Assembly: GCA_951799405.1 (NCBI GenBank)
Contig: OX637342.1
Location: 4,278,001-4,342,000 of the forward strand
Length of the DNA stretch: 64,000 nt
From: Agapetus fuscipes
Lineage: Eukaryota; Arthropoda; Insecta; Trichoptera; Glossosomatidae
Direction: 5' to 3'
The translations under genes were made by a program, and so were the position numbers. Under the pieces are notes generated by a model. That model was not told where the DNA came from. It worked only from the letters and a program-made list of their open reading frames with translations, and ran no database searches. Of the stretch, positions 3,276-63,007 are shown piece by piece; position 1 is the first letter of the stretch, and every line of letters starts with the position of its first letter.

Positions 3276-3768
3276 TTGTCGCAATTTCTTGACGGATTTG
3301 TCTGAAGAAACGTAAAAAAATGCCTTTGACGTTAAACTTCTAAAATTAAAAATGATTTTCTGAGTAACAATTAAGAAATTAATTTGTAGGCAAAAAAAGC
3401 AGTCCAGGCATAATAATATGATAAGTGTAACATTTTTTGCTCAAATACGGAAGGCAGACCGACGTCCAAACACAAGGAGGATTTCCTTTCTCTTAGGGTA
3501 GATTTTTTATTTACCATCGATGAACAGACAAAAATTGAGCATCAGAACCGTTTAAAATAGTGTGCCCTAGAACGTCCTCTTAATGTAAAAAAGTTTTTGT
3601 TGTAATCAGTTTCCAGGCAACCATCAATTAAATCTTTAAAAAAGAAACCCTTTTTTCTCCCGAAAATCCCGTTTTTTTGTAATCTCTTTTTGACGTACGA
3701 GTATGATTCTCATATCTAATATCTCATTTTTCGTTGTACACATATTTCATAGAACGTTGTTTAAAATA
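3276..3768. other. No recognised feature
   Basis: No coding segment or family member of the window's repeats recognised. Confidence 0.4.
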
Positions 3769-8700: not shown

Positions 8701-11700
8701 CATTCTTTGAGAAAAGCTTTTCCCCATTTTACACTTTCTAGTAAACGGCCCATTGAATTTGATTTTTTTTTATCGGTATAGTCCATTTTTATATTATCTA
8801 TTTTTTAATATCAAAACGAGCCAAAATCATGCTTTTAAAGACTTCAGAATTAACATCCTTTTACAAAAACAAATCATTATCTAACCAAATCAAACTTTCT
8901 TGGTATTTAAATTGGTAGGTATAAAAATAATTGAGTTTCATTAGAAAACAATCTATACAAAAAACGATTTGTTTATAAGTATTCTTACCAAAAATCATGC
9001 ATAAAATTATGTTAAAAGCAATCATGAAATGAAGCATATTCCGTCATAACAGGGCTTGTTTAGCCTATCCACCATTTAATACAAAGATGACCTTTCAATA
9101 ACATTGTCTTAAGAATCACATTCTACACAATCTGAGCTAAAAAACATAAAACGCGATAGCGTTAAGTTATTTAAAATGTATTTGTACAATCAATTACCAT
9201 TTTTCATAAGACACATTGGTCCAGTACACAAACAGACATTGCTCATGTGAAATTACCTCTGATGAACGTTAGATAACCAAGCACTAAGTGGACGAATTTC
9301 GTTGACGAACCGATTTTGGAAAACTTCGCAATGTGTAGTGCAGACAAAAAATATTTCCCCTACATTTGAATATTTAAGCAATACGCATTTTCCATTCACA
9401 ACTTCAACCCGCGACTCCATCTTGGATTCAAATTTTATGAAGTCTTTTCTGACCTCAAATAACATGTATTAACTTAAGAAGTACATTTCTTTACAGTCAT
9501 GAGAATGATTTCTTCCGTTTTCTCAAATTGCCCTTTCCTGTAATTGAACGATGTGAAAAAGAGGTTTTTATTTCTTTCAAGGGGAAGCCCCGAGATTTTC
9601 TCGTGAGAGTGGACCAAATGAAAGTGTGTATTTTTTTTTCATTCACCGAGCAATCTACGAAAAGTCGTCACGAGGGAGTTTTTCATGAGTGAAAACCTAA
9701 GCGGAAAAAAATAAACTTTTTCGCAAAAATAATTTTATTCGTGTTTCAGGGAAAGGCGGCAAAATTGCAGAGCTGGCTGAATGTGAAAAATGTTAGAATG
9801 TGAGATGTCAGAAAAAAACCGAAATATTGGATGTATTTATTATGTTACCCATCAACAGAAATGGTTTGAGATATTGCCGTATAGGCGGTATACCCTTGTA
9901 CGTTTAGGGTTTACCTTATGTAGCAGATACCTACAGTTGCAGAATGTGTATGCGCAGACATACATACATATGTGCCTTCATATGTGAATATGAAGTGTAG
10001 AGTTTAAAATTTAATATCGATGTGTATTTGCATTTTAGAAGATTTAATTTTATTGATTGTAGAGGCATTCACTGTATAATCATTCATCTTAAAATAATGA
10101 AATCTTAAAAGATAAGAAATAAAATAACTTTGTTTTTGATTACGCCGAGTATATTTAGTTCTGACCGGTTTTGTAAACAATCCTTTTGTATCCTTAATTA
10201 GTTCCTAACTAATTATTTAGCCACTTTAGGATGCAAACGGATTATTATTTACCCTTTTCAAATCCAATATCAATCGCCATTTCCTCTCAGTGTCTCAAAA
10301 CACAACGCAACACACACGACAGCACTGCGCAGCTAACTGCCCTGCAGCCGGACAAGAACAACTGCCACATCATCAACACCTCTGTGGCACTATAATTTTT
10401 GCTTTTCAGCGCCCTTGGAGTGACTACATCACGAAACGGCGCTATAAAGAAATCATCAACTCATCATCATCATCATAACTAGTGTCATAGACCCCTAGAG
10501 TCTCTTGAATCTAGGGAGTCTCCCCCACAGGCTTTCTTAAAAAAACGGTCATAAAACTGAATATACTCGCCGGTGCCGTAATCAAAAACTTTTTTTTTTT
10601 TTATCTTTTAGAAGATTTATGTTATTTTTTGTTTGCTTTAATTTTAAATATACTCGCCGGTGCCGTAATCAAAAACTTTTTTTTTTTTTTATCTTTTAGA
10701 AGATTTATGTTATTTTTTGTTTGCTTTAAGGATGACTGAACCTTTCAGATTTATATTGTAACTGGTAGCTTAAAGACAATGGTTTTGACTTTATATTCCG
10801 TGATCTGTGGTTTTGACTGTTTTTTGAAATTTAAAAAATAAGTTTCCCTGGAGATTCGTACCTGGTGCCTTTTGATACAAAGCTCATGGGAATTATCAAC
10901 AGACTATTACCGGTCTAGAAAGCGTCAGCAGATCTTATTGTATATATTTGAAGATTGAACGCAATAAAATATGGTGTCGTGTAAACAGCTGATCTCTGTA
11001 CCATACAAAATGTGTCTGGCTGGTATCCACATCACCCCCTTAGTGCTTGTTTGTCTTATGTCCAACAGAGGTTATTTCATACTGAAAATACTTTGTAAAA
11101 ATCTTACAAATTAGTATGACGCTGACCACCTATACTGTAAAAATGATTAACTTTGCTAATGTCATCTCTCTTTCGGGTACGTTGACAAAAGTTGCAGGAA
11201 GTAGCAGGATTGCAGGAAACTACTAAAAACAACTCTCATATAATCTTGTTTAACATTTTTTTCTTAGCTTAGCTCGAGTAGAATATGATTTAAAAGACAA
11301 TTTCATTTATAGGTTATCTTTGAATCAAATGATAGATAAGCCTAACGAGCACTGGAGGAGCGAAATATCTTTTTGCTTTTTTTTTGGTTGCCAAAAACGC
11401 TAGTCATCTTAGACCTGTGAAGTCGACGTGTCGAAGGAAATTTGGAATGATCTGACCCTAATGCAGGTTGTAAGCATGCTTTATATTTGGTTTTGAAAAT
11501 GTAACTCACCCAAGTCGTAATTTAAAATTTGGAACTCGTTCTGCTCGTTCTCACTGGCTGTGGAGTACGTGACGCTGCATGTCCCGCTCGCGCGCGCTAT
11601 GCAAATGGCGTAATTCAAATTATTCTGGAAAAACAAACAAAATAATTACATTTTTGTTTTCTTGCGCCAATGTTTTGGAGGTGTCCGTTTTTTGCTTGCT

Positions 11701-17700: not shown

Positions 17701-20700
17701 CTTGTAGTTGAAGGTCTCCAGGGTCGCTTGCCGATCCGTGTAGTACTGCAGGCAGCCTGGGGGCGCGCCCCCTTCGGATAACTGGCAGACGCCCACCTGG
17801 AGGAGGCGGGGGGCTGGGGAGGCGGTGAGCAGAGACAGGTAGAAGGGGCCGGACACATCGCCTACTTCCACGTAAACTGAAAGAAAAATCAGACTGATGT
17901 TAGGAAGACAATCTCAAGTGAAATTACTCCTTTTTTATTGATTGTAGAGGCATTAACTTTGTAATCGTTCATCATTAAAGATAAAAGAAAAACAGCTTTG
18001 TTTTCGATTACGTGAGTAGCTTTATATATTTTTATACCACAACCGGTTTCGCAAACATCCGTTATAGTATTAATTGAACCACCTGACGATGCAAACGGAT
18101 GTTTGCGAAACTAGTTGTGGTATAAAAATATATATACTCACGTAATCGAAAACAAAGCTGTTTTTCTTTTATCCGAAACTACTCCTTATTAATGAGAAGA
18201 AATGTATTGACCTTTTTTTGTATGCTATCCAATTTTATTGAACATTTTTATGGCTGCATCATCGATCAACCCCAAATATACAGATGAAAGATTTGAGACA
18301 TTTTGTGTGCCAAAAAAGTGTGCGCCATACTAACTACACCTTGTCAATTGGGAGAATCTGCGAAATGATTCAAAGCGTTTACAATTTTGCTTGGGTTAAA
18401 TAATAACAGAACGATTTTTGAGAAATATCAAATGACTGATATCAGTTTGACGTATATCCGAATCAAGACCCGAGCACATTCTTTAATATGCAATAAGTTC
18501 AGCTTTAAATTTAATTTTACAACCATAAATATTTTTAAAGTTTGAATTAGTATTAATGTGTATTTGTGTTTCGACGGTTCATGTCGTTCAAATTAAAACA
18601 ACTCTAATATAAAAAAAAGAGTTATTTATTGGCTTTCCAATTTTTTTTATTTTTTTTATGCCACGAGCGCCTTTAGGACAAAACAGGCCAAAATCTTGTC
18701 GGTTACACCAAAACCATACTTCGATAACGCAATTGTTTGCTTGGGCATAAACAACCAAAAAAAATCATCGTAGAGCTATGGGAGTTAGCGCGTTAGAAAG
18801 AGCGAAAAATTTGAAGTAGCATTCATAAATAATTTTTGACCACAACGTCGTTAATCAGGAGGTAATTTTCAAAAGTGGTCAACTCCAAATTGATAGAAAA
18901 TGAAGTAAGTATACAACATTTTTCTAGGAAGAATTATTTATCGGCTCATATCAATCCTAACAAGCTAAATCCAGCCTAAGCCCCTCAAATCAATAAACAA
19001 TATCAACCTTTCATTCAAAATTAGCCTATTCCAGACCACCTTACTTTCAAACATGGCTAGATCCGTTTTCAGCCAATCACGTCGCTCCTAGCCCCATCCG
19101 CCATATTGCATTCTCCATACATCGAGACGTCAAAAGTAGTCAAATCCGAACCGCTTCCTAAGAAAATTGGTCAAATCCATTTCGCTTTCATTAAAAATGG
19201 TCAAATCCACACCTTGGAAACAAAACTAGTCAAATCCGTTTTTTATTCGGGGCTTTCTCCGTAAATACAAGCATTTACTTTATTTCTGTTGTATTTGATT
19301 TATCCTGAACTCCACATTATTCTAAAGTTACCATTCTAAGCATCACAACGGAGTACATAATGACAGAACACAAAAGTCGTCTTTTCTCAATTTGGCATAA
19401 AGTGGACTTGGCTACTATTGAAAATTACCTCCTGGTTTATGCTTCAATAATATTTTCCGGAAATACACAATAACCAGATTTTGTTATAAGCGGAACACCC
19501 ACCAATAATATTTCATTGATTCTCTAAAAAAAATAAAAATATCACTTTTATACACGAGGAATATATTTCTCAATAAATATTCGAGTAATATGAACTCAAA
19601 CATTTAATAAATATTATTTCATTCACCTAAGTATCTACTTAAATTTCCTGGTGGGCAACATTTTAAGGACAAAGGTTACCACAACACCAAATAATCCAGA
19701 GTTTATTGAATAAAACTCACAATAAAATAAATCGTCTTAGTGTAGAATGTAACGAGATGGATTTGTTTGTTAGGTAAAATGGAACATGAGATTTGAATTT
19801 GAATGAAAAGAAAAAACAAAAGAAGGTAGAAAGAGAGGAGAAGCTTGCCAGGCGGGATAGCCACAAGCCTGTGTAATTAAGAATAAAGAATATTATTGTG
19901 CTGTGGTTAATTGTGTATACATTGTGAAAGAAATAAAAATAAACATATTAAAGTGGCTGTTAATTATTAATTGTGTCAATCAGCAGGACAGAAGAAAAAC
20001 CCTCACATTTTGGCGCCCAACGTAAAAGAAAAATCTGTAAATGAAATTCCTATGAAGAAAATTTTCTCAAACAAAAACAAATGACATTCGATTCCAATAA
20101 ATGACATTGAAAACAATACAATATATGAAATAATTAAAATTGAACAGATTTATGGTTGTGAAAGCATAATGGAAAGCATCAACACGTTTAAAAGCTAGTG
20201 AAGACATCAACTTATACAATTTAAAACAAGAAATTGCAAGTTTTAAAAGGCGGTTTTGAAAATATTGAACGGCTGTTTTGAAAATATTGAAGGCAAGAGA
20301 ATTCAAATTACCTACCTACGTTCGGAAGAAATGAACATTTAAAAATGGAACACCGCGGAAGAATGAAGAATGGATATGAACCAGTTTGTTTCAAATCAGT
20401 TTAGATAAATATATATAGATGGTGTTATATTTAATTTGTATGAAATTTTTTTTTTGAGATGAAATGATTTATTCTCTAATTGCATAAATTGAAAATATAC
20501 AGCAAATGATGAAATCTAAAAAAAATAAATAATAAAAAGGATTTAGAAAGTAACACAATGGAGTCCATAAATTTTGATCCTCTCAAGTTAAAAATATCTT
20601 TTAATGGTGAAAGTGAACCAAATGAATTTATAATAAGGTTAGAAGAATTAGCCAAAGTCTACAAATTAAAATTAGATTATTTGGTAGAGTGTATGCCTAT

Positions 20701-29700: not shown

Positions 29701-32700
29701 GAACATAAGTCCTGCAACCCTTGCCAAGTTTCCCTGGAACAGAGCGACATTGGCTAAGTGAAGCATTTTTTCAACAGTATGGGTGGTCAGCCTCATATCA
29801 ACCTTTAAGTCAGGAAAGTGACTAATATATCTTAGCGCAGAGACTAAATGTTTATGAAGAAAATTATGCCTAAATAAATAAGATCCGAACTGTCTTTTAT
29901 TACTTTTTCGAAGCACAAAATGTGCTTTTAAAAAACCCGAAAACATTATTTCAATTATGATTATTTTATTGCGCCCAGTCGATAGCTCAGTTGGTAGAGT
30001 GCTTGCATTACATGCCGTGAGCTCGGGCTCGAACCCCACCGAGGGTCTCAGAAATGATTTCCCGTTTCGGTGCTTATTTCAAACCCCGAAATAAAATACC
30101 GGCAAGGTTTACTCAGCCTTCACAAGAAATGAGTACCAGCCCCCTCGGGATCTGGGAGACCCCCACTTCAACTGAAGTGGTTGGCGTAAGGCCGGCCCCC
30201 TTTTCTGTACAAATAAATAGGTTCAACTCGCCACATGCGACCCTTTCGGGGATAACGCGGCAAGAAGTTACACTACATGTGCAGCTTAGTTGCGTTTTTT
30301 TTGTTGCGCAGTTGTTTAATAATGCCAAAATTCATGTTTTATTTTAACAGTGTGACGTCAATTACAGCAAAAGTTTCTGACTTTACTGTTTTCAGATAAC
30401 AAAACGTGACCCATTTCTGACGTCAAAAGAAACGTGATGTGATTGAAGATACACCCGGTAAAACATACAAGCTGATAAAAGGCTAAATATCTATGCTCGT
30501 TTACGGAAGGATTGAAAAAGATTCATAACTGGATGAAACATCTTCAGCCGCGAATTTGAGTCCTTGCATACTTTTTCCATAAATATCAATAATCTGAAAT
30601 TTAAGGTGCAAAGATATCGATTGCCCAGTTCCACACTGTAATAAGTCCGAAATTCACGATTTTGAGTTTTACCTGCTATATTATAAAGGAAGCTCTGTTT
30701 TTTCAATTCAAACAAGTCGATATCGTTATTATTTTCGTCATACACTGGATTATTTCACTATGAAATTTTATACATCCAACTTTATTTTTAATTCCACTTT
30801 GCAATATCTCGAAATAGTTTTGTATGGAAGTGAAATGAAAAAACATTTACAACATTTCGAAACAAAAAACATTTTCCTTTGAAATAAGTTACAGTGAAGA
30901 CACAAAATTAACGTTGATTCAAATAAGTGTTCTTTTTCCTGGCCTATTCAGATGAAACTTTGACAGGCCATATCTCAAAACATTGTATTTTGAAATATTA
31001 CAATGTGGAACTGGGTAAACGACATGCATAACAACATTTTATATATGAGGATAATTTTATACAAGACTAAATAGCACCATTTTAGTTTGTTGTCACACCC
31101 AACCTTTATTTTGTATCAACTGCATAACAACAAGCAGACACAATGTTATTTAATGCTTACTCTGCATGTTTAATTAAAAAAAAAACCTGACATGAACATA
31201 AACCTTGCAAATCCTGCTGCCATTATTTGAAACCGGTGTGGCATTGGCAAAAGAGAATCAAGTTTTACAGCATAAGAGATCAGCGTCATACCAACTTATT
31301 AGTCAAGGAGCCAAACCCGTTATGATAATAATGATTGTCTCATTATATTTGAACATCTTATATTTTTCTTGAAAATTTTACGATCTCTCAAATCCTCAGC
31401 GATAACGCAGCTCATCAAGTAGCATTATTTTTAGTACGGGGAAATTGCGCGTCATAGAAAAATATTAAAGTATTTATTACCTTTATCTTAGTTTTACGAG
31501 TAGGAAGTCTTTCACGACCGATTTATATCTCGTTCGAGTATGAGTAACTTTTCACGGTATAATGCTAATGATAGAAATGGGTTAGTTTTGTGCTGGATGA
31601 AAACACTACCTTGTTCCGTTATTTTCTAGAAATAGAATTTACAGGGTTGATAAATACCTTTTTCTGTATGTTTTTCTTGTAAATCTGTTGAAAGGTTTAT
31701 TTAGGAAACGGAAACAAGAGGCTTTGGCAACCCCTAGTGGGATAGTGACAGAGTTACAGTTACATTAGTAAAGATGATTGAATTGAAGCGTTCGACATGT
31801 GTATTTACCAAAAAATGCTTTGGATCTCTTAGCGTGTTCGGGTCATCAATGAATAAGTCCTCCGACGTATGCGCACCACAAAGGAACTTCTGCCAACCAT
31901 TAAGCAGAGAAAGTTGATGTACCTACTTTGGTCACATTTTGAGAAATGAGAAATACCGTCTTCTTCATCTAATCATTCAGGGTACGATTAGGGGAGAAGA
32001 ACTCAGGGACGCCAAAGCCCATCGTGATTATTGGATATTTTTCCTGTGCTTTTTCATAACGTCAATCATCCCGAAGGCGCTGAATTGTGGTGGAAAAACC
32101 TTCGTCATCTTTTTAACAAAAGCACCAGGTCCTTGTTTGGAGCCGCAGTATTCAAGGTCAAAATAATCATGATGGTGGCCGATCTTCGATAAAAGTGGCA
32201 ACAAAAGAAGAATAAGATTTACGCTGCAGAGTTACTTTACAGGATCTGTTGTCGTGGTCTGTTCGAGCTGACGCTTTCGGTAATCTTTTTGTCCCCTTAG
32301 TGCTTCTTTGTCTTATGTCTATCAGAGGAATTTTCACATGAGCAACGTATGTATGTGTAATAGACCAATGTGTCTTATGAAAACTGAAAATTTATTTTCA
32401 AAATATTTCAAACAATTCTCACAGCATCGTGGTTTACGTTTTTTTTTAGCTCAGATTGTGTAGAATGTGATTCTTTACATAATTTCATTGAAATGCCATA
32501 TTTGAATCAAGTTAGTGCTATGGTCGAGGTACTCAAGTCCCTATTCTAGACTAGCGTATTTGGAACAGAATAACGCTGGTCCGAATCACGCTTGGCCTTT
32601 CGACCATAAATTCAATCCTGGTTCATCAGATGCCATTGCATGCACACAAGCTTTTGCTTTCGCATGAAGACATCCGGCAAGGCAAAAAAGATTTGTGAAT

Positions 32701-35700
32701 TGCATTTCTCTTCACAAACTTAATATAAAAAAGTAAGATAAGCCAAAAAAGCACTGGGGGATGTTTTGGTATAGCACCTTTATAAATTAAACATAATATT
32801 TATAATAAATAAACAAAAACTAAACGTGCATTTAATTTTTCTACGACTTTGGCTTACCGTGTTGATTGTTGTTGATCCCACACAGAATGGGAATGATGCT
32901 GTTGACGTTGTGACCACTCACCACAAACTGGTCATTCACACAGCTGCCATTTGTCGGCGGTTGCAGCTGAAAACACCACAGAACAAAATGTAAATTAAAT
33001 ACTTCATACCAAGCCCAAATGTGCTGGTATTGTCACCATCATATTGTGTTTTGTTAAAATTATCAGAAATACTGTGTGGATCACAGTAGTCTATCTTTCA
33101 CAGTAACACATTGAACCATCAAAAGTAAAGTTTTACAAGATGGCTAGGATTTTCACCACAATCACATAAATTTCACCTTCAGTTTCAATTCTTGTATTTT
33201 TTGTGACAACCCAAAGTCCGCAATGAAGTTCTTTTTATTCCCAATAAACTGACAAACGGAGATCCGAAACATAAATAAAAGTACCACATCCTTGACTTCT
33301 AGGTTGGTAAGGGGCTGACCACACATACTATAAAAAATGGTTGACTTTACAAATGTCATTCCTGTTTCAGGGAAGGTCCAAAAGTTGCAGGGTTTGTGTT
33401 CATTTTGAGATTTTGTTTTTAATTTGTAAGTACACATGCAACATTTGCAAGCGCAAACTTACACGTGTCTGTTTGTGGGCATGCACTTAATATAAGTCTT
33501 AAATGTTAACATATCTCTGCAAATTATATTATAGATTTTATAATACAAAAGTAACTTACCTCCATCTGAACAATGTCTAATCTAAGTTGCTTGACCCCGC
33601 TGTTCGCCTTGTGGATGGTGAGGGTGCAGGACAGCTGGTCCATGGAGGGCTTGGGGAAGCCTGGGTTGGTGAAGGTGGAACAATTGGCAGAGGTCTGGTC
33701 ACCGCAAGAATACTGGACTGTTGACAGAAATGTAATATAGGTACTGTTACGAACTTGGAGTTTCTACGTGCGCATGTACAGGTACAATAGTGTGTGTAGA
33801 ACATTCCAGTATTATCTATGATTTTAGAAGTAAGGTACGTAGGTGGTCTGGTATGAGCGACAGATCTAATGATCTGGAATATGCGAGAAAGATCTCTTTA
33901 GTATCTATACATGGGACTGCAAAGATACGGAGGGGGAATTGTCGCTCAAAACATTTTACCGTGAAGACCAATAAGCAGGGATTATCAATTGTTGTAAATT
34001 GTGAAACAAACCGTCTAAAATAAATTCTGTTAAAATAAATAATTGTAGTTAAATTAAAAGAAAACCCCAGTAAAGTCGTAACAATACCTTTACTAATAAA
34101 TAAATCGTTTTTGTGTTCTTTCAAGTTTGACCATGTTCTATTTGCAGCTCCTACATCTGCTGACGTTTCGCTTTCACGAGCAGAAAGCATCTTCAAGGCG
34201 AGTTTTCAAAGCGCCGTGGTGGTTTTCGTTGTCTTCGCGGACGCGCGTTGGTGTAAACTGGTTGGAAATACGTTGCGTTTACACGAACGCGCGTCCGCGA
34301 AGACAACGAAAACCGCTACGGCACTTTAAAAACTCGCCTTGAAAACGCTTTCTGCTCGTGAAAACGAAACGTCGGCAGATGTAGGAGCTGTAAATAGAAC
34401 ATAGTCAAACCCAAAAGAACACAAAAACGATTTATTTATTATTAATACCGGCCATGAAAGTGAAAGTTTTAAACTTTATTTAATACCTTTACTACTTAGA
34501 TTATATAGGGAGATACATCGTTTATCTAAGTTTAACAGGAGATTCTTGTATATTATAAATTAAATATTTGCATCTACATAATGAGCAACAGAATTGCATA
34601 GTGCATCATCCCAGAAAAGCTATTCAACATATTAAAGTTAAGTAAAGAACTTTCCTAGTTAATAGTTTTAAGCGGCAGTATGAAGAGTAATGGATGTTAT
34701 AATGCCTGCAGGTAATAACTTCTATACTTCAGATCCAATACGGGCCAGATGTGATACTAAGTTTTAAAGTTTGTGTTTCTAATAAAAAACATTATCTTGT
34801 TAGTTTCACACATGCTACAAACAAATTTTTCATCTGTCGGTATCCTAGTGGTTTCTCTTTTTATGAACTTAGCTGATTATGAATTTTGAACTTTTTCTAT
34901 CCGAAAAAATATCACCTTTCGTTATCGTAGGTCAGTAAGAACAAAATATTTGTATGCATCCTACCTAGCAACTCGGCTGTGTGAAATCACAATTTTCCCT
35001 TGGAAGATTGTGGGCTCAATTTTAAGAGGAGCTCAAAACATGCTTTTCACTGGGTTGAAAAATTCATGCGCCCCTACTAAACATTGGTTATTACAGGTTC
35101 ATCCAGCTTTACCAGTAACTCTTGTTTGGGACTTGACGCTTTCTATAGCGACAACCAAGTTTGCAGAAAGCTCTTGTGGTGATTAACACAAAAAAAACGC
35201 TCACTAAATAAAGTATATTCATTAATAAATATTGAAAGGTGACTGAATTCAATTTTGACATGAAAAGAATGAATAAAGCGTTTTTTCTAGACTACAAGGC
35301 ACATACGAATATTAAGTTAAATATACCATCAAGCTTTATTATACGCATTATTGATATGTGAAATGAATATTTATGTCATGAATATGAATGCGTGTCATAA
35401 AAACGTGTACATTAGTGATCAATATTTGTCTCATTAGAATGTGTACAACAAATAAATATTACACGTTTATTGACAAAAGCATTGCTCATATTTAAGTATG
35501 ATAAATTATTTAATTAATCGCAAAATATTATTTGAATGTATTAAGTATAATTGATCATATATTATACTTGGCAACGTTTTGCTGCAACAGTGGTAGAAAC
35601 ATGGAGGGTAGAAAGTTCGGCTGGTACCTAACTATAGCGCTCCTGCACTAGTAACACGAACCAGATGTTTTAACAAAATGCTAAAAAAGAATAACCTGAA

Positions 35701-45035: not shown

Positions 45036-45864
45036 TTGTAACAATAATAATCACGTCTCGCTACTGAATGAAGTTTTCATCTAATTAATACTAAGTCAGT
45101 CTGTTCTTGCCTCGTTGGGTATTCGGTACCCCAAGATTAACTCAATCTTTTCGTTCACCAAAAAATAAATGTAAACATAAACGCCCATTGGAGAGACTGT
45201 TAAATATATAAGCATTGTTTAATAAACGCTATGGTTAAGTGAGAACGTAGAGTTGTATACTTGGATTTTCCGGGCAGACAACCGTGAAATGACGAGTTGA
45301 TCAGACAAGTGATAAAATGATCAGCAAGCGGAAATAGAAGTAGTAAAATACTGGAAAATTGAGACTTGTTAAGAGGATATAGTCCGCAAACAATCAACTC
45401 AAATCAACATGTTTATTTATCAACCTTTACCTATTTTATGATGTTGATAGATTGCATCCAAGTTGATTTAGTTTGTTAGGTATTTTTAAGTTTAAATTTT
45501 GAGTATTACTTTGTAAAAAACACAGTTTTTTTTCACAGTTTTTGAAACTTAAATTGTCTAAGCGCTTTCAGACTTTATTCGTCTGTCTTCAGAAGATTAC
45601 TGTGATTTTTAGGCAGCTTTAAGGCTACTCTTTGAACTTAAATCAAGTCTATTCCCCAGGTGATTCAAAGTTAGCTTATGTGACTTTAAGCTGGGAAAAA
45701 ACCTGGATGACTTTTATAGAATTATCTTGTTAATTTAGTATTAAATATTTCCTTTGAAATTGAAAAGAAAAGTACAAAAAATTGCAGCTTTCGATATATC
45801 CAGAGTTCATAGTAGTAGAGCCATGTTTATAAGAAGTTCAGGTAGATACAATTTTTGTTAGTAC
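45036..45864. other. No gene recognised; one hammerhead-like motif
   Basis: At 45560-45592 (minus) the order CTGAAGA, C, AGAC/GTCT stem, GAA, self-complementary AGCGCT, T is seen. It is a degenerate hammerhead-like module with weak stem I. Otherwise nothing. Confidence 0.35.
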
Positions 45865-46265: not shown

Positions 46266-46962
46266 AAACCTCTTGAAAGGTAATGCTTTTTTATGCTAGC
46301 CATTTTTTTCTGGTGAAATATTAAGTTCTTGGGTGACCTCTGTATAAAAGCCATATTAAAAATCTCATCAATTCTACTGGCCAAGAAAAAGAGTCTTTTT
46401 TTATTTTAGAACTTTACGTGACTGATTTTTCCCTTTGGCTGGAAGAATAACTTTAAAGACGATTAAGATGAAAAATATTAATAATTTAATTTTTTGAAAA
46501 AAATGACTCATTCTTTTCCTTATTAATTATACGAAGATAAATTACGTCTAAAATTGCCTGAAAACGTTTTCAGTAATTTTCGAAAGTCTTTACGCTTATC
46601 GTAATCACAGAGAATGTTCGGGAAAACTTTTGGAAACTTCAGAAAGCTCTCTTTAAAAAAAACTTGATTTACAACAGAAACCCCCTTTAAGCCTTTTAAT
46701 TCCATTAAAAAACCCATTAAATTCCTTTGGGGCCGATATTATTATTTACATCAATTTCACCCTTTGAAAAATTGATGAAAACTCGACTTATGAAAACTCA
46801 ATCTAAGGATTAATACGGTTTTAGAATGAGACAATTTAAAATTTAGGATTGAAATTAATATTTTAATATTTTTTAGGGTTTGGTAGTTCACACAGTGAAA
46901 GTCCATTGTATAATTAATTAAATAATACACTGTTTTAATTCACTAAATTTAAAAAAAAAAAA
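46266..46962. other. No recognised feature
   Basis: The stretch 46880-46945 shares CACAGTGAAAGTCCATT and TGTTTTAATTCACTAA with the MITE at 47540 and is probably a broken relative. Confidence 0.35.
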
Positions 46963-46998
46963 GTCAAACGTTTTCGCCTAAAAAGGCATCATCAGGAC
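46963..46998 (-). ncRNA. Hammerhead-like module
   Basis: Minus strand: stem I GTC/GAC, core CTGATGA intact, one extra T, stem II GCCT/AGGC with a 4-nt T loop, GAA, self-complementary AACGTT, then T at the cleavage position. All three helices pair. Confidence 0.55.
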
Positions 46999-47539
46999 AA
47001 TGACAATTACAAATCAAAATTAAATTCACTTCTTCTTCATCTCCCTTCACATTAAATAGACAATATATTTAGGTATAACTGTAAATTCAAATTAATAAAG
47101 ATTTAAAAATATAAATGTTTAACCAAATTGTAAAATATATAATAAAATTGTAAATGTTAGGTTTAAATTTAAAGTCAAATTAATAAAACCAATATAAATG
47201 TTTAACTAATATGGCAAACCAAATAGTAAAATTGTACAATGTATAGTAAATTGTAAAATGTTTAAGTATAAATTTACAGTCAACTTAAATAAAATTCAAA
47301 TATAATTATCAACTAAAATTGTAAATTGTAAAAATAATTGTAAAGTTCATAATATAAATTGTCAAATGTATAAATTAACCCATAAAATGTATAACCCAAA
47401 TAACGAAAATATAATATAAATTGTTTAATGCATATATAAACTAAAAAGCATAATGACAATCAAAATTTCTTTAAATAAATTATTAAAGTTAATAATATTT
47501 TTTAGTGTTGATCTGTTAACACAGTGAAAGTCCATTTTT

Positions 47540-47877
47540 ATAAATATTTAAAAATATAAATGGTAAAACATTGTTTTAATTCACTAACATATTTTATTTT
47601 TATTGTATTCAAATTTTTAATTTCATTATACCTAACAATAATACATTTTTGAATCTTACATTTGTGTTTAAAAAAAAAAAAATTTTGTCTATGAATTTTG
47701 CTTTTGTTTTGGAAAAAAAGTTGTTTTGAAAATTGTTTTGAAAATTATTTTATAAAAATATATTTGTAACCATTCTGCTCTTGAAGATGCCTCATTAGGC
47801 GAAAATATTCGAGCATAAACAAATAAAATAAAGTGAATTAAAACAATGTTTTACCATTTATATTTTTAAATATTTAT
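47540..47877. mobile_element. MITE with 46-bp terminal inverted repeats
   Basis: ATAAATATTTAAAAATATAA ... at the left is matched in reverse at 47832-47877; both ends continue through GGTAAAACATTGTTTTAATT. 338 bp, AT-rich, no frame. Contains the hammerhead-like module at 47776-47815. Confidence 0.75.
47776..47815 (+). ncRNA. Hammerhead-like module, 5-bp stem I
   Basis: Stem I TGCTC/GAGCA (5 bp), core TTGAAGA (C3 changed to T), extra T, stem II GCCT/AGGC with CATT loop, GAA, self-complementary AATATT, then C. The AATATT in place of AACGTT keeps complementarity. The C3 change probably abolishes activity. Confidence 0.55.
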
Positions 47878-48099
47878 TAAAGTTAATTATTACTGTAACA
47901 ATGGAGAGACTAATATTTTAAAGTTAAATTGGTGTAATGAGTGGAAAAGATACTAAAATTATTCTGAAAGATTGACTTTGTACTAAAACAGACTTAATTT
48001 AACGTTTTGTCAAATTTTACGTGTTGAATTATATACAAAAAACATATTGCTATGTACAGCAGACGAAATGAATGCTTAAATACATTTTTACTAGTCGCG

Positions 48100-48215
48100 T
48101 TAAGTCGCTCGAATTGGCGTTATTGAAATAATGGCAAATTCGAACCACGCCTGCGCCGTGTCCTATCAATAATAATTTTGACCCTGATTCAACAGATGCT
48201 ATTGGCTAATAATTT
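48100..48215 (+). repeat. SINE-3 fragment
   Basis: GGCGTTATTGAAATAATGGC, AAATTCGAACCACGCC (B-box) and GATTCAACAGATGCTATTGG. Confidence 0.45.
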
Positions 48216-48218
48216 ATT

Positions 48219-48774
48219 AGTAATTGTTATGTTATTTTACTAAATAACATATAAAAGAGCAATCTCGAAGTGTGCAGTATGTTTTGTGGGCCGAACGGAG
48301 CCGAACGGTCACGAAAGCGGCCGAACTGTGCCGTGTGACCTAATGGGGCCGTCGGTTATCAGTTCCCGGCAAGATGTCAACCAATTCAGACGTCGCGTCG
48401 GCGACCAAGCACCAAGCGGTGCAAGAGGGGGCATTACAATGGAACTTCCTCCTCCCCATCTACTTGGATTTCCTGCCAGCAAGGCACCCGCCTTGTGGAT
48501 CAGAGGCATAGGAGACATAGTGCATAGGAGCGCCCACCCAGGGGCTCCAACGTGTGAAGGCGTCCGCCTCGTGAGCCACCGCTAGCCTGGGGCGCTGCCC
48601 CAGGCCATTCAGTTCGGAACTCCAGTCAACAGAGTAGGGAGTGTTTTAGTGACAAGTTCAGGTCGAGCCATTCCCTTATTTCACTTTTTCCCCCAAATTA
48701 GTAAAGTAAATAAACCCTTATTTGTTCATGTTAAACTTATCTTTTACTATAAAGCCTTCCCAAAATACAAGTAA
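48219..48774 (+). mobile_element. Possible solo LTR, GC-rich
   Basis: AGTAA occurs at 48219-48223 and 48770-48774 and could be a 5-bp target duplication around a 546-bp body ending ATACA. The body has TATAAAAG (48250-48257), a GC-rich stretch with a strong hairpin in GGGGCGCTGCCCC (about 48592-48604), and AATAAA near 48710. The upstream part would be unusually short for a U3. Alternatively it is a host promoter with a first exon ending at the donor GTAAGT (48832). The 99-codon plus-strand frame has no recognisable domain. Confidence 0.35.
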
Positions 48775-48969
48775 GCAACTCAAGGAAAGAACCCCACGCC
48801 CTGAGAGTGTTGCTGATGAGAGCTAGCCGGAGTAAGTATCCTGTAGGTACATCCTGGAGATACCTTTCAATCCATTAAACATAACATAATCCATTAAAAT
48901 ATTAAAAAACAATTGGAAACTGATAATGTTATAATATACCTGTTTCTGGCCAGGCTGGTGAATTGTATT

Positions 48970-49233
48970 CTAAATCTAATCTTAATCTAAGTCACAAAGA
49001 AATACATCATTTGAGATTCATATTAAATGCATTCCCACAAGCAGACACGCACAATTTTGCGCTAACACATGCCGCATGTGGACCTACAACAATATAAAAA
49101 TCCAATCTGAAATGAACATAAGCCCTGCAACTCTTGCCTACCCTCGCTGAAACAGAGGTGACATTGGCAAAGTGAACCATATTTTTACAGTATGGGTGGT
49201 CAGCCTCATACCAACCTATAAGTCAAGGAATAT
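48970..49233 (-). repeat. LINE-A tail copy, well preserved
   Basis: TCTAATCTTAATCTAAG to CCAACCTATAAGTCAAGG. Intact CACATGCCGCATGTG palindrome. Confidence 0.75.
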
Positions 49234-49851
49234 AACTATTCACAAATCTATTTAAAAAAAAGTAAAGACGGCTAAAACCTACTGTATAAATTTAATTTTG
49301 TTAAATGTTTCGAAATTTTCTTTCTTGCTTTATTATTTTATTTTAGCGTTTTAATAATTTTTTAAAGTTTGTACTCACAACAACAAAACATTAAGAAAGA
49401 TATAAAAAATACTTATAGACTTTGACATCAATGAATCTATTTTTAACTTAATTTTATATAACTAACGATCTAACTTTATTTTAGTTTGATTCAACATAAA
49501 CGACAACAAAGTTAAATGTTTTGATGCTTTTTTACAAGAAAACTAACTTCTCAATCCCCTGAGAGCCTTCAAACAGGGGAGAGAATACAGATCTTTCAGC
49601 ATCCGCGAACTAAATTATTTGTTTTATGATGAAGCCAGAAGGCAGATTATTTTCTTCGTGGAGCTTTCAAATAGAAATTTCCAGACCTGATGTTTTGAAT
49701 ATCAAACTGTTGGGAGACAATGCCCATGAATATTTATAGCAGTTCACATTTTGATACACAGTTTAAAACGGGATTTGGAAAAAACGGCAGTGGCGAAGTC
49801 TCCTTATTTCCGTGAGCCAACAAAATAACAAGTATTGCAAAATAATTAGGC
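49234..49851. other. No recognised feature
   Basis: Nothing recognised. Confidence 0.35.
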
Positions 49852-49899
49852 TGTACCTGATGGTGATCGTGATCGTGAGTGATCGAAAACGTTAGTATA
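49852..49899 (+). ncRNA. Hammerhead-like module, 5-bp stem I
   Basis: Stem I TGTAC/GTATA (5 bp including one G-T), core CTGATGG (A9 changed to G), extra T, stem II GATC/GATC with a longer loop, GAA, AACGTT, then A. Both helices differ in sequence from the other copies but still pair. Confidence 0.5.
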
Positions 49900-49939
49900 A
49901 TAATAAATTAAAAAGTTTTTTAATAGAATAAAGATTGTA

Positions 49940-50090
49940 AAGACATGTATACATACAAAATAAATCAAGCCTCACATGAACATACACTTTGCAAGTCCTG
50001 CCGCCATTCCCTGAAAACGGGGTGGCACTGAAAGAAGTGAACATGTTTTCACAGCAGGGGTCATCCTTATATCAATCTATAAGTCATGTC
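49940..50090 (-). repeat. LINE-A tail copy, 3' truncated
   Basis: CTCACATGAACATACACTTT, CCCTGAAAACGGGGTGGCAC and TCAATCTATAAGTCATG. Confidence 0.6.
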
Positions 50091-50190
50091 GGCTGGATAC
50101 ATGAACAATAATTAATGAATTAAAAGTTGAAAGATTTGTGTATTGACATTGCGAAGATTAATTTTAAAAGAAAACACAAAGTTTTTCTTC

Positions 50191-50302
50191 ACGAGTTGAT
50201 TTTATTTCCTCGAGCGCTTACGATGCTATCATGTCATTATCAGGACAATAAGAGGGCGGTTGTGATAACATCGGAAGCGCTCGAAGGAATAAATCAACTC
50301 GT
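50191..50302. mobile_element. Small foldback element
   Basis: CGAGTTGATTTTATTTCC, CGAGCGCTTACGATG against CATCGGAAGCGCTCG and GGAATAAATCAACTCG. The centre contains a TTATCAGGAC segment reminiscent of the hammerhead-like modules but without a complete core. Confidence 0.65.
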
Positions 50303-50380
50303 AAAGGAACATTTTATTTTTTATTTAGTTATTAAAAAATCTTGTTTTATTTTCACTTTTTTTATTATTTATATAAAGGA

Positions 50381-50419
50381 CACGAACGTTTTCGACTACT
50401 TCGTAGTCATCATCAGGTG
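50381..50419 (-). ncRNA. Hammerhead-like module, intact core
   Basis: Minus strand: stem I CAC/GTG, core CTGATGA intact, extra T, stem II GACTAC/GTAGTC with a GAA loop, GAA, AACGTT, then C. Beyond stem I, TTTAT and ATAAA could extend the helix after an internal loop. Best-preserved copy. Confidence 0.6.
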
Positions 50420-50477
50420 ATAAAAAAATTATAATATTAAAATTATAATTATAATTATAAAATTATAATGTTTTTAC

Positions 50478-50516
50478 CACCTGATGATGACTACGAAGTA
50501 GTCGAAAACGTTCGCG
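50478..50516 (+). ncRNA. Hammerhead-like module, right arm
   Basis: Same stem II, core and AACGTT as the copy at 50381; stem I is CAC/GCG, with one A-C mismatch. Confidence 0.5.
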
Positions 50517-50693
50517 TCCTTTATATAAATAATAAAAAAAGTGAAAATAAAACAAGATTTTTTAATAACTAAATAAAGATGAATTTTCACAGTGTTAATG
50601 CACCAACCATCCAAAAATTTATTTTTTAATTTTACATGATTAATTTACCACAATTAATTTTATTGAATTTTGTTTTAATTATACAGTTTTTTA

Positions 50694-52917: not shown

Positions 52918-53046
52918 ATAAAAACGCAACTAAGCTACACATATAGCACAACTTCCTCCCTCGTTCTCCCTGAAAGGCTCACATTTTGCAAGTGAACTTA
53001 TTTATTTTGAAAGTTAGAGGCTGGCACTCATTTCTTGTAAAGGCTA
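52918..53046 (-). repeat. SINE-1, 3' half, split by LINE-A
   Basis: From AAACGCAACTAAGC to TTCTTGTAAAGGCT. The other half continues at 54233 (GCTGAGTAAAC). The LINE-A at 53047-54232 lies exactly between, with GGCT/AGCT as a possible short duplication. Confidence 0.7.
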
Positions 53047-54232
53047 CTGTATGCAGATGATGCAGTTCTTGTATCTGATTCTGCAGTAGAATTGCAAACA
53101 ATGCTCTCTAGATTGAATGAAGCTTTGTTAGGTAACCATTTGAAGTTGAATGCAAGTAAGACGAAAGTATTGATTTTTGAAAGAGATGATGAAAATATGA
53201 ATTATGAATTTAAAATTAATGGAATGAATGTTGATGTCGTAAATGAGTTTGTATACCTGGGAAGTAAGTTTGAAAAAGATGGAAGAATGATCGGTGAATT
53301 TGAAAGAAGAATAATGAAAGGCAGGTGCGTACTGGGTGCTACCGCTAGCATCGCCAAGAACCAGAATCTTTCAAAAAATGTTCGACTGGCGGTGCACGGT
53401 GGTATACTAGTGCCCACTCTGATATATGGAAGTGAAGCCTGGACGGTGAGTGAAAGTGAGATTAGTAAAGTCCATACAGTAGAAATGGACTACTTAAGAA
53501 GTATGATTGGGAAAAGACGGAGTGATAGGGTAAGGAATGATTTTGTTAGAGAGGAATGTGGTGTAAGAGAAAGTGTGAAAGTAAAGATTAAAAGAAGTAT
53601 GCTTAGATGGTTTGGACATTTGGAGAGAATGAATGAGGAAAGACTGACGAAGAAAGTATATGCTGCGAGAATTGATGGATGTCGTGGAAGAGGAAGACCG
53701 AGAAAGGTATGGATGGACCAAATTTTCGAAATAGCGAATGAATGGGATATCCAGAGTCATAATAAAAGGAGAGCTTGTATAAAAAAGGTTATGGCTCTGG
53801 ATGAAATGAAAGAAGTATGCAAGGATCGAAAGAAATGGCGGTTGATCTGTAATGCTGGCGGTTAAAGCTAAGGCTTTTAAATTTAAAAAATATGTGTTGT
53901 AGCTTTTTAATTTTTTACTGTTTAATTGCTTAGAATTTATTTGTTTTATATATTTGATTGTATCAATTGCATGTACTCCTTGATTGATAGGTTGGTATGC
54001 GGCTGACCACCCATACTGTAAAAAATGGTTCACTTTGCCAATGTCACCCCTGCTTCAGGGAAGGTCGGCAAGAGTTGCAGGGCTTATGTTCATTTGAGAT
54101 TGGGGTTTTTATATTGTAGGTCCACATGCAGCATGTGTAAGCGCGAAATTATGCATGTCTGCTTGTGGGAATGCATTTAATATGAATCTCAAATGATACA
54201 TATCTTTGCAGCTTAGATTTAGATTTAGATTT
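53047..54232 (+). mobile_element. LINE-A, longest copy: RT palm to 3' tail
   Basis: An uninterrupted frame (53047-53865) begins LYADDAVLVSDS, the RT catalytic motif, then TMLSRLNEAL, GSEAWTVSESEISKVH, KRSMLRWFGHLERMNEERL, GRGRPRKVWMDQI and ends LICNAGG then TAA. The 3' UTR has an AT-rich spacer, the conserved tail (about 53965-54220) and TTAGATTTAGATTT. It is 5'-truncated at the YADD motif and so lacks endonuclease and most of the polymerase. This copy shows that the abundant tail repeat in the window is a LINE 3'UTR. Confidence 0.85.
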
Positions 54233-55235: not shown

Positions 55236-55553
55236 GCAAAACATCAGTAACATAAGAGATTCACATTATATGCATTTTAACAAAACAGACATGTATAAGT
55301 TCGCGCTTAAACATGCCGCATGTAGTCCTACAATATAAAAACCCGAATCTCAAATGAACATACACCCTGCAACTCCTGCTGACCTTCCCTGATACAGGAG
55401 TGACATTGGCAAAGTGAACCATTTTCTACAGCATGGGTGGTCAGCCGTATATCAAACTGTAAGTCAAGGAAATTACACAACAAATTTCATTTTTAAAATC
55501 AACAAATTATAGTATGTATGCACATCAAAAACTAACAGAAAACAAATTCTAAT
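55216..55553 (-). repeat. LINE-A tail plus spacer
   Basis: TCTAATCTTATCTAAGTTGC to CAAACTGTAAGTCAAGG, then the AT-rich spacer of the 2592 subfamily (ATTTTTAAAATCAACAAATT). Confidence 0.7.
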
Positions 55554-56465: not shown

Positions 56466-56533
56466 AATATGTGTACATATTAATTAAAATGCAAACCTCA
56501 AATTAACGTAAGCCCTGTAACTATTGCCTTTAA

Positions 56534-57234
56534 GAGCCCTACATACCCTAAATCTGCCGTTTTTGTTTCTTACACTTTATGGTCTTAGCAAAATAGTTAC
56601 AGTAATAATAAAAATCAAGCTTGTTTATTAAATTTTTATCTTAATTATAAAGTTTGAATAAAATATATAACTTAAAAATTGCGACCACAAAAAAAATATT
56701 TAAAAAAAATACGTTTTTTTCAATTCTGTAGCTACTTTCTCGTTTGTGCTATGTTTTGGAAATATTTTTTTTCTTTTTATTTATAGAACTATACATTGTT
56801 TAGTGTAGTATCAGAACAGTTTTTTTATAATGTCAATAGTTTTTGAGTAAATGTGGAAAAACTGTGTTCTTCGATTTAATTTAAATTTAATTCATCAAGT
56901 AGTTTTAGTTTTTCCATATTTACTCAAAAACTGTTGACATTATAAAAAAACTGTTCCGATACTACACTAAACAATGTATAGTTCTATAAATAGAAAGAAA
57001 AAAAATATTTCCAAAACATAGCATACACGAGAAAGTAGCTACAGAAGTGAAAAAAACGTATTTGTTTAAATATTTTTTTGTGGTCGCAATTTTTAAGTTA
57101 TATATTTTGCTTAAACTTTATAATTAAGATAAAAAATTAATAAACATGCTTGATTTTTTTCATTACTGTCACTTTTTTGCTAAGACCATAAAGTGTAAGA
57201 TACAAAAACGGCAGATTTAGGGTATGTAGGGCTC
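56534..57234. mobile_element. Large foldback element flanked by TTAA
   Basis: Two arms of about 345 bp, GAGCCCTACATACCCTAAAT against its reverse complement, with a short centre near 56885. TTAA flanks both ends (56530-56533 and 57235-57238). The RNA would be an almost uninterrupted long hairpin. No frame. A block of about 55 bp (CCGTTTTTGTTTC...TTACAG...ATCAAG) recurs in 62376-62614. Confidence 0.85.
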
Positions 57235-57262
57235 TTAACCTTTGCCCATATTTTTTTTTGTG

Positions 57263-57915: not shown

Positions 57916-58100
57916 GGTCTCTGTTAGGCTTAAGTTGAAATTACCGTCGTTTGACATATTTATAATTATAATAACTACACAGTTAAAAAAAATACCCGTA
58001 TATAAGACGAACATTATAAAAGAACTTACATTATTTTCGACGTTGCGTTAGCGACGTAGCTAACGCTAACGAAACGTCGAGAATGGTGTAAGTTCTCATA
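57916..58100 (+). repeat. Repeat R5 copy with palindromic end
   Basis: GTTAGGCTTAAGTTG...TTTGACATATTTA...GAACTTACA then GTTAGC/GCTAAC repeats and GAAACGTC. Matches 60306-60455. The end resembles the stem II and stem III part of the hammerhead-like modules. Confidence 0.5.
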
Positions 58101-58345
58101 GTAGCTTATTTTGAGATTAATTTTCAGCACAGATAGAGACGTTTATGCTAAGAAAAAAAAGTGAAGTGACATATTTTAGAAAAAAAAATATCTCGTACTT
58201 AAATATTTGTGCATCTGAAAGAAGCGAAAAACTTCAAGAGCTGCAATTCAGATCTAAAATCAGTAAACACTGCAAAATTGGTACTATATTGTTCTGTTAC
58301 TCTTGATATTCCACATTTGAAAATTATTTTAAAATAAATCACTTT

Positions 58346-58586
58346 GATGCTGGAGTGATGCTTTCCGGGATCTGTTGCCGTGGTCTGTGGGAAATGGAGC
58401 TTCCGGACGTTTCACCTATTTCTACGATGGGCTTCATCAGCGTGAAGTATGATGATGATGATGATCTTGATGAGAACTGTGATGAAGAAGCTGGAGCTGA
58501 GCTGAGGAGAAGGAAGCTGGAGCAACCGGAAGCTCCAGCTCCCACAGACCACGGCAACAGATCCCGGAAAGCATCACTCCAGCATC
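58346..58586. mobile_element. MITE with 62-bp inverted arms
   Basis: GATGCTGGAGTGATGCTTTC against GAAAGCATCACTCCAGCATC; arms 58346-58407 and 58525-58586. The frame through it (58355-58603) contains an Asp-rich run produced by GAT repeats. A partial hammerhead-like module lies at 58405-58440 (minus): CTGATGA, stem, GAA, ACGT, C. Confidence 0.75.
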
Positions 58587-58606
58587 ATCAGCCGGCCGTG
58601 TAAGCC

Positions 58607-62375: not shown

Positions 62376-62614
62376 GTACCCTTAGTACGAGTTGCAAAAC
62401 TTGAGTAAAGTAAAGTTTACTGAAAGTATTAAAGAGTGATTTTCTCCAAAATCGGCCGTTTTTGTTTCTAACACTTAATGGTCTTAGCAAAAGAGTTACA
62501 GGGATGAAGAAAATCAAGTTCAAACAAACAAAAACGGCAGATTTTGGGGAAAGCCACTCTTTAATACTTTTCGTAAACACTTTACTCAAGTTTTGCAACT
62601 CGTACTCAAGGTAC
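62376..62614. mobile_element. Foldback element
   Basis: GTACCCTTAGTACGAGTTGC against GCAACTCGTACTCAAGGTAC; arms of about 95 bp. The centre repeats the CCGTTTTTGTTTCTAACACT block of the 56534 element. Confidence 0.75.
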
Positions 62615-62875: not shown

Positions 62876-62965
62876 ATCAAGTTTATCCGCATTAAATTGT
62901 ATCTTTAAATATTTTATATGGTTTGCGTTTACACTGTGAAAATTCATATTTGAAACCCCATCAAT

Positions 62966-63007
62966 TGTACCTGATGATGATTGTAAGAGATTGAAAACGT
63001 TTATGTT
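62966..63007 (+). ncRNA. Hammerhead-like module
   Basis: Stem I TGTAC, with one C-A mismatch to its partner ATGTT; core CTGATGA intact; extra T; stem II GATT/GATT (pairs as G-U, A-U, U-A, U-G), GAA, AACGTT, then T. Resembles the 49852 copy after C-to-T changes. Confidence 0.45.

Follow-up and report, generated by a model that had tools for sequence, protein, structure and literature searches.

The DNA analysed here, called the window throughout, is a stretch of 64,000 nucleotides of Agapetus fuscipes (Trichoptera; contig OX637342.1, positions 4,278,001 to 4,342,000). It carries a series of short modules with the layout of the hammerhead ribozyme (HHR), many of them placed in inverted pairs that look like the two ends of Penelope-like elements (PLEs). 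The four best-preserved pairs (E1 to E4) and the modules that stand by themselves are the following, in window coordinates.

17933..18174, unstranded: E1, head-to-head pair of putative HHR-bearing PLE-type ends, left arm long (with tail), right arm short
17920-17932 and 18175-18187: E1 duplication GAAAYTACTCCTT, 12 of 13 positions matching
18078..18121, + strand: E1 hammerhead module, stem III ACTAGT (in the other arm ACCGGT, the 5' half missing)
34096..34481, unstranded: E2, head-to-head pair of a short left and a long right arm
34083-34095 and 34482-34494: E2 13-bp duplication AATACCTTTACTA
34155..34201, - strand: E2 left-arm hammerhead module, core TTGAAGA
34334..34380, + strand: E2 right-arm decayed hammerhead module, core TTGAAAA, E 3.6
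47494..47873, unstranded: E3, head-to-head pair of a long left arm without a recognised HHR and a short right arm
47480-47493 and 47874-47887: E3 14-bp duplication TTATTAAAGTTAAT, AT-rich, boundary less sure
47776..47815, + strand: E3 hammerhead module
50324..50617, unstranded: E4, head-to-head pair of a short left and a long right arm that are 96% complementary
50313-50323 and 50618-50628: E4 duplication TTTATTTTTTA
50379..50421, - strand: E4 left-arm hammerhead module
50476..50518, + strand: E4 right-arm hammerhead module, stem I down to 1 bp
46961..47000, - strand: hammerhead module in a single arm, apparently older, adjoining E3
49852..49899, + strand: single hammerhead module, core CTGATGG
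62966..63007, + strand: single hammerhead module, with a tail-like stretch upstream on the other strand (62906-62951)
45555..45597, - strand: weak hammerhead-like module, stem III AGCGCT, extra nucleotide C

The modules were defined by a strict descriptor (CTGANGA, one nucleotide, stem II of at least 4 bp, GAA, a palindromic stem III beginning with A, and a base other than G), which was matched six times in the window and in none of 200 dinucleotide shuffles. When one core mismatch was permitted, nine matches were obtained against a shuffle mean of 0.1. All six strict matches had an offset of one nucleotide before stem II and none was found at 0 or 2. The extra nucleotide, to which an earlier sequence-only reading had drawn attention, was present in each of the ten aligned modules, across which the core T, G, A and G and the GAA with its following A were invariant. 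An exact CTGANGA core is found at 18083, 46995, 50416, 50481, 62971 and 45592, and in these modules A15.1-U16.1 and H17 of a minimal type I hammerhead are present by sequence; the others are variants. Pattern scans of viral and prokaryotic contigs gave 0, 24, 0 and 81 loci, among which no relatives were found, and these 105 loci served as a chance background, their other features being left aside. In this background the core combined with CGAAAACGTT occurred 100 times, accompanied by a stem II of at least 4 bp in only five cases (stem II 4-5 bp, stem I 0-1 bp), against three out of three in the window. The hammerhead modules in the window are real and exceed chance.

Eight good modules had been proposed by the sequence-only reading. 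Four of these (46963, 50381, 50478 and 62966) have the exact core, and the other four depart from it (TTGAAGA at 47776 and 34159, TTGAAAA at 34336, CTGATGG at 49852). Its four weaker modules fared unevenly: 45560 satisfied the strict descriptor, 58405 appeared only in the looser scan with a stem II of 3 bp, 60423 is a 3' half only, and 50694 was absent from both match lists. The best-formed module of all, at 18078-18121 on the + strand (5 bp in stem I, 6 bp in stem II, ACTAGT as stem III), had been overlooked. A covariance model built from the ten window modules recovered these at E values up to 0.002, as is given by its construction, and added in the window a chance-like match at 3297 (E 1.3) and the decayed 34336 copy (E 3.6).

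Also overlooked was the context, as seven of eleven modules lie within head-to-head mirror pairs. Self-comparison of the window placed such pairs at 18083, 34196, 34339, 47781, 50416, 50481 and 58440, with the 5' side of the ribozyme facing inward. The outer ends of E1 to E4 are marked by duplications of 11-14 bp, one arm measuring about 86-95 nt and the other about 131-137 nt from A9, and the arms of E1 end at different 5' truncation points. A duplication score of at least 10 was reached by 5 of 400 random loci. The arm-length ranges were set from E2 to E4, so that only two of the five scored elements are independent, namely E1 (hit) and E6 (no hit).

Stem II was paired in 97.5% of the 40 cells of ten modules, and the pairing fell to 20-38% when the partner was slid along. 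Its covariation score was 1.07, compared with a shuffled mean of 0.36, and 0 of 500 shuffles reached it. Two weaker measures, four pairs altered on both sides and nine further pair types, were equalled by 88 and 18 of 500 shuffles, respectively. As the modules had been chosen partly for stem II, the shuffles of the strict descriptor are the cleaner control. For stem III a hand-made list of distinct six-nucleotide types from the window and from the GIY-YIG loci described below was used (AACGTT, AATATT, ACTAGT, ACCGGT, AGCGCT, AGTACT, AATGTT, AGTGCT and AACGCT), from which the 4-nt ACGT and the 8-nt AACGCGTT were excluded. Eight of the nine fully self-pair when G-U is allowed and six are strict palindromes, which was matched by 17 of 20,000 re-pairings of the halves; the window hexamers had mostly been found by the palindrome rule. 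The covarying stems of the sequence-only reading are thus strongly upheld for stem II, while for stem III, on the hand-made list, the sequence changes and self-complementarity is mostly kept, as predicted by selection for dimer pairing. When six modules were folded alone, the drawn stem II appeared in four, in a shifted register in 49852 and not at all in 34154, and a full three-stem hammerhead was formed in none of the six, which is to be expected if stem III has to come from a second copy.

The extra nucleotide is T in eight of the ten aligned modules, A in 58440 and C in 45592. Preceded by A9 and followed by the first G of stem II, it spells ATG in 7 of 11 frames, which suggests that the offset couples the ribozyme with a start codon. 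Read from A9, the frame stops after 3-4 codons in the E3 and E4 families; in the left arm of E2 it starts with ATG and meets no stop in the 60 codons that were read, the element itself ending after about 31 of them. An extra core nucleotide near A9 and stem II was reportedly described by De la Pena and Flores in 2001 for the hammerhead of Chrysanthemum chlorotic mottle viroid, which resembles the present modules in this respect and differs in being a viroid RNA, not a retroelement.

Membership of the PLEs was examined in the host assembly (618 Mb, 148 contigs) with a Pfam GIY-YIG search, in which 150 of 973 candidates were scored and 16 matches were obtained (best E 3.2e-6). At all 16 loci at least one match to the HHR model was present at E up to 1 on either strand, and in 14 of them an HHR lay 167-386 nt downstream of the GIY-YIG on the same strand (13 at E up to 0.04, and L212 at 0.46). 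No HHR was found downstream on the same strand in L198, and the one in L197, which was kept out of the 14, is doubtful (E 0.99). In L199 (430-1869) a single frame of 480 amino acids combines RVT_1 (8.4e-13) with GIY-YIG (4.2e-6), and an identical HHR stands on each side. The E3 module at 47776 is identical over its 40 nt to modules located 272-305 nt downstream of the GIY-YIG in L201, L202, L204 and L206. Such identity with a domain-bearing copy was shown for the E3 family; for E1, E2 and E4 the link to PLEs is the same geometry only. In seven loci modules flank the GIY-YIG on both sides, and in six of these a duplication marks out a short arm and a long arm (98/139, 88/135, 90/145, 89/137, 93/146 and 87/138 nt, the lengths of L211 using the second-longest duplication candidate). 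No duplication of this kind was found in the seventh, L209, where the two flanking modules differ. The PLE traits present comprise reverse transcriptase (RT) and GIY-YIG in one frame, modules in pseudo-long terminal repeats (pLTRs) at the ends, a tail and a target duplication. GIY-YIG was absent from the 66 stop-to-stop open reading frames (ORFs) of at least 85 amino acids in the window, where the copies are ends only. The mobile-element-borne hammerhead family with some decayed copies that had been proposed earlier is therefore given an identity, a Penelope-like element with RT and GIY-YIG whose modules sit in terminal repeats. On this sequence evidence the modules are very probably minimal type I hammerhead motifs in the pLTRs of several PLE families, and the pairs in the window short two-end insertions in head-to-head order.

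A 32-mer of E4 was used as query for further copies of its family, and 110 exact copies were found in the genome, against none for the reversed control. Among the 100 copies listed there were 14 close opposite-strand pairs, every one in -,+ order. From these 100 copies 86 insertions were read: 37 in L106-L148, one in the window and 48 in L149-L196, a second set that was fetched after the one-tail rule had been noticed and was read with the same landmarks, which tolerate two errors. By these landmarks 62 of the 86 have a head-to-head partner. One long and one short arm were found in 32 of 34 pairs of the first set and the window (binomial 3.5e-8 against one half; the other two short/short) and in 25 of 28 of the second set (two short/short, one long/long), so that 57 of 62 pairs have exactly one tailed arm. 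The same held for 48 of the 49 pairs with a duplication of at least 9 bp. Such duplications occurred in 27 of 34 pairs against 30 of 1310 mismatched pairings in the first set, and in 22 of 28 against 89 of 1084 in the second. They are mostly 10-13 bp long. The tail measures about 41-55 nt by the boundaries called here, and long arms bear the AC-rich stretch CACAGTGTTAATGCACCAACCATCC or a near form. Paired copies of this family are short, with 153-1137 bp between landmarks, and the arms of several genome pairs end at different 5' truncation points.

All 34 pairs of the first set, some with truncated arms, were used for a comparison of the arms. The summed edit distance within pairs was 188, below all of 5000 permutations (mean 247, minimum 203), which implies that the two arms usually derive from one source element, or from one RNA copied twice. 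Within the stretch that the two E1 arms share, the only differences are CCGG versus CTAG in stem III, a single terminal base and an indel of 4 nt. As evidence for two templates this is weakened, since a double CpG transition would also turn CCGG into CTAG; CpG depletion in the window is slight (0.87). When the stem III centre was left free in the 100 listed E4-type copies, in a search that requires intact neighbouring bases, CG was found in 97, TG, CT and CC in one each and TA in none. The E1 difference is suggestive only as evidence for two templates, and the arm comparison says that arms usually share their source. Position 17 of E4-type copies is mostly T genome-wide and C in the window pair E4 (the C version had 5 copies, and a slightly different T version 107).

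Target sites were oriented by arm type. In the first set (n=27), 22 sites had A at -4, 23 had T at +4, and 11 had GTTT. In the second (n=21), A was present at -3 in 16 and at -2 in 17, and T at +3 in 18. In both sets the duplication is preceded by an A-rich half and followed by a T-rich half, and the exact motif is only roughly repeated.

The pairs could arise as follows. The RNA would pair with a second copy through the self-complementary stem III and cleave after position 17 as a dimer, perhaps assisted by the element protein. The RT/GIY-YIG protein, perhaps dimeric itself, would cut both target strands about 10-13 bp apart, the cuts falling between the A-rich and T-rich half-sites, and each freed 3' end would prime the copying of RNA from the same source. 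One RT start would lie about 86-98 nt after the ribozyme A9 and the other about 131-146 nt after it, yielding the tail, and the two cDNAs would finally join at their 5' ends. One-tail pairs fit two RT starts, one per target strand, at two template sites. Whether every normal insertion involves two such coordinated starts, one per cut strand, on same-source RNA, one obligatorily inner and the other about 40 nt further out, with ends that are not equivalent, and whether this should replace self-priming, seems to us evenly balanced. If it is true, the head-to-head form of animal PLEs and their single tail are both explained by the non-equivalence of the two ends of the integration complex.

In the self-priming model, proposed for PLEs of Adineta vaga in PMC3846280, which argues from junction palindromes and an antisense template, the PLE cDNA forms a fold-back at its end and serves as its own template. 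Variants common to both arms of one insertion agree with this, as does E7, a small palindrome of the window that is centred on a stem II hairpin. However, fold-back of one cDNA should by our reasoning duplicate the tail or enter the flank, and 57 of 62 pairs are one-tailed instead; outer-end target duplications of at least 9 bp are present in 49 of 62 pairs, and E1 and several genome pairs are truncated at differing 5' points. One-tail pairs thus fit simple cDNA self-priming poorly, and we regard it as unlikely.

The stem pairing might instead be a relic of DNA-level palindromes that neither have nor ever had a ribozyme function. Such a view could appeal to the amplified core variants and to PAc, the Poseidon element of Anolis carolinensis, the hammerhead of which is inactive without protein (PMC11167929). 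It is made rather remote by the compensation in stem II across families (97.5% of cells paired, 1.07 vs 0.36), by the self-pairing of eight of nine stem III hexamers (17 of 20,000 shuffles) and by the invariance of the core T, G, A and G and of GAA and the next A in ten modules. More remote again is an assignment to the metazoan retrozymes, non-autonomous elements spread via small circular RNAs made by hammerheads. These too are short, non-coding and HHR-bearing and coexist with PLEs, but they are described in PMC7229834 and PMC7761336 as tandem repeats of a few hundred base pairs with canonical type I hammerheads. Here stem III is minimal and close copies mostly stand in head-to-head pairs instead of tandems: among 80 neighbouring arms less than 700 nt apart (overlapping loci counted twice), 61 were -+, that is, head to head, 10 were --, 7 ++ and 2 +-. 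That the palindromes are foldback DNA transposons, like miniature inverted-repeat transposable elements, with the motif in their arms by chance is hardly credible, for, despite near-perfect inverted repeats with duplications and Rfam microRNA models that match E4 (below gathering scores and probably owing to fold-back shape), the arm ends are not fixed, one being about 40 nt longer, arms may have lost 5' sequence at the centre, and RT/GIY-YIG matches are flanked by the same modules.

Several observations weigh against hammerhead-bearing PLE ends inserted by two coordinated starts. No partner was found for 24 of the 86 insertions, 4 of them belonging to the first set and 20 to the second. Five of the 62 pairs break the one-tail rule: one is long/long and has a low-complexity duplication of 10 bp, and the other four are short/short and lack a duplication of 9 bp; at L125, one of these four, the landmarks seem to have been matched falsely in the right arm. 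The second-set targets have A at -4 in 11, T at +4 in 16 and GTTT in 3 of 21, and the head-to-head statistics come from one family only. In vitro, RT start in PAc shows no strand difference, and a strict one-tail rule is not predicted from it (PMC11167929). Stem I ranges from 0 to 5 bp, so that some modules have hardly any or none of it (1 bp at 50478, 0 bp at 62966 and at 34159). No Rfam hammerhead family matched the window modules or L199, even at E up to 10, in the search that the sequence-only reading had put forward as a check; this is not counted as a refutation because L199, a coding PLE locus, fails too. Core variants have been amplified next to GIY-YIG, TTGAAGA in four identical modules and CCGAAGA in three. 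This makes it unlikely that full ribozyme activity is needed for spread, and argues against a strict need for full cleavage activity.

Minimal hammerhead motifs of PLEs were reportedly described by Cervera and De la Pena in 2014 and by Lunse, Weinberg and Breaker in 2017. Such hammerheads and their action as dimers are already in print (PMC6155905, PMC7761336, PMC7229834), and the present modules share with them the type I layout, a reduced or lacking stem III, the pLTR location, thousands of dispersed copies and a proposed dimer cleavage. They differ in host and families and perhaps in the extra nucleotide of all ten aligned modules. In PAc the HHR lies at the junction of pLTR and ORF, the ORF beginning at stem II; both target strands are cleaved and extended, there is an internal RT start, and two RT start sites define the tail (PMC11167929). 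Its hammerhead is protein-assisted and its catalytic mutants still insert in vitro (PMC11167929), with which the amplified core variants agree in that cleavage need not be strict. The likeness covers the HHR/ORF junction, the internal RT start, the two tail-defining starts, and cleavage and extension of two strands. The difference is that here the two starts amount to a near-strict rule of one each per insertion and that the E4-family pairs are short. For the Adineta vaga Penelope, PMC3846280 gives head-to-head inverted pLTRs, an optional 31-bp tail on one of them and duplications of 8-10 bp. Inverted pLTRs, an optional single tail and target duplications recur here; the duplications, however, are mostly 10-13 bp, ORF-less pairs are common, and the tail asymmetry was counted and used against self-priming. 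While the hammerhead motif, the inverted pairs and the optional tail are thus in print, the near-strict one-tail rule looks fresh: neither a counted rule nor a two-start explanation of the pairs was found in the literature searched, most subscription papers being outside its scope. After the 2024 in vitro study the later steps of PLE insertion remain to be validated (PMC11167929). With dozens of short mirror-pair insertions in each of which both ends can be read, the insertion route becomes testable through the single tail, the duplications at the two ends and the common source of the arms. What is ordinary as a ribozyme finding is informative as a footprint of insertion.

The window contains further, mostly decayed pairs.

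50167..50326, unstranded: E5, decayed head-to-head pair, AGCGCT in both arms
58345..58587, unstranded: E6, decayed head-to-head pair, HHR at 58399-58445 (- strand) with GAAACGTC
58021..58096, unstranded: E7, small palindrome of two 3' HHR halves (GAAACGTC, GCAACGTC) that meet in stem II
10091..10716, unstranded: E8, decayed and related to E1, with inverted copies, one arm retaining an ACCGGT remnant

No HHR was seen in the right arm of E6, which by eye starts near the predicted cleavage site of the left-arm module; this is a single case, as is the coincidence of the centre of E7 with its stem II hairpin. A convincing duplication was sought and not found for E5, E6, E9 and the single modules at 46995 and 45592, and the candidates for E7 and 49857 are weak only. 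Rfam microRNA matches at E4 and at 56800-56970 stayed below gathering scores, and microRNA precursors were rejected there, the fold-back shape being the probable cause. Immediately 3' of the 49852 module lies a copy of a dispersed repeat of about 145 bp, possibly a short interspersed element, with about twenty matches in the window (among them 49944-50086, 15634-15777, 55319-55466 and 31165-31305). The large palindromes at 56530-57238 and 62376-62614, in which no hammerhead was seen, share a stretch around AAACAAAAACGGCAGATTT and perhaps represent another fold-back family. RT fragments at 13848-14735 and 53041-53862 are taken as remains of long interspersed elements. The frame at 20513-24598 is an open, AT-rich, gag-pol-like frame of 1362 amino acids with protease, RT, RNase H and integrase matches, and looks like a long terminal repeat retrotransposon.

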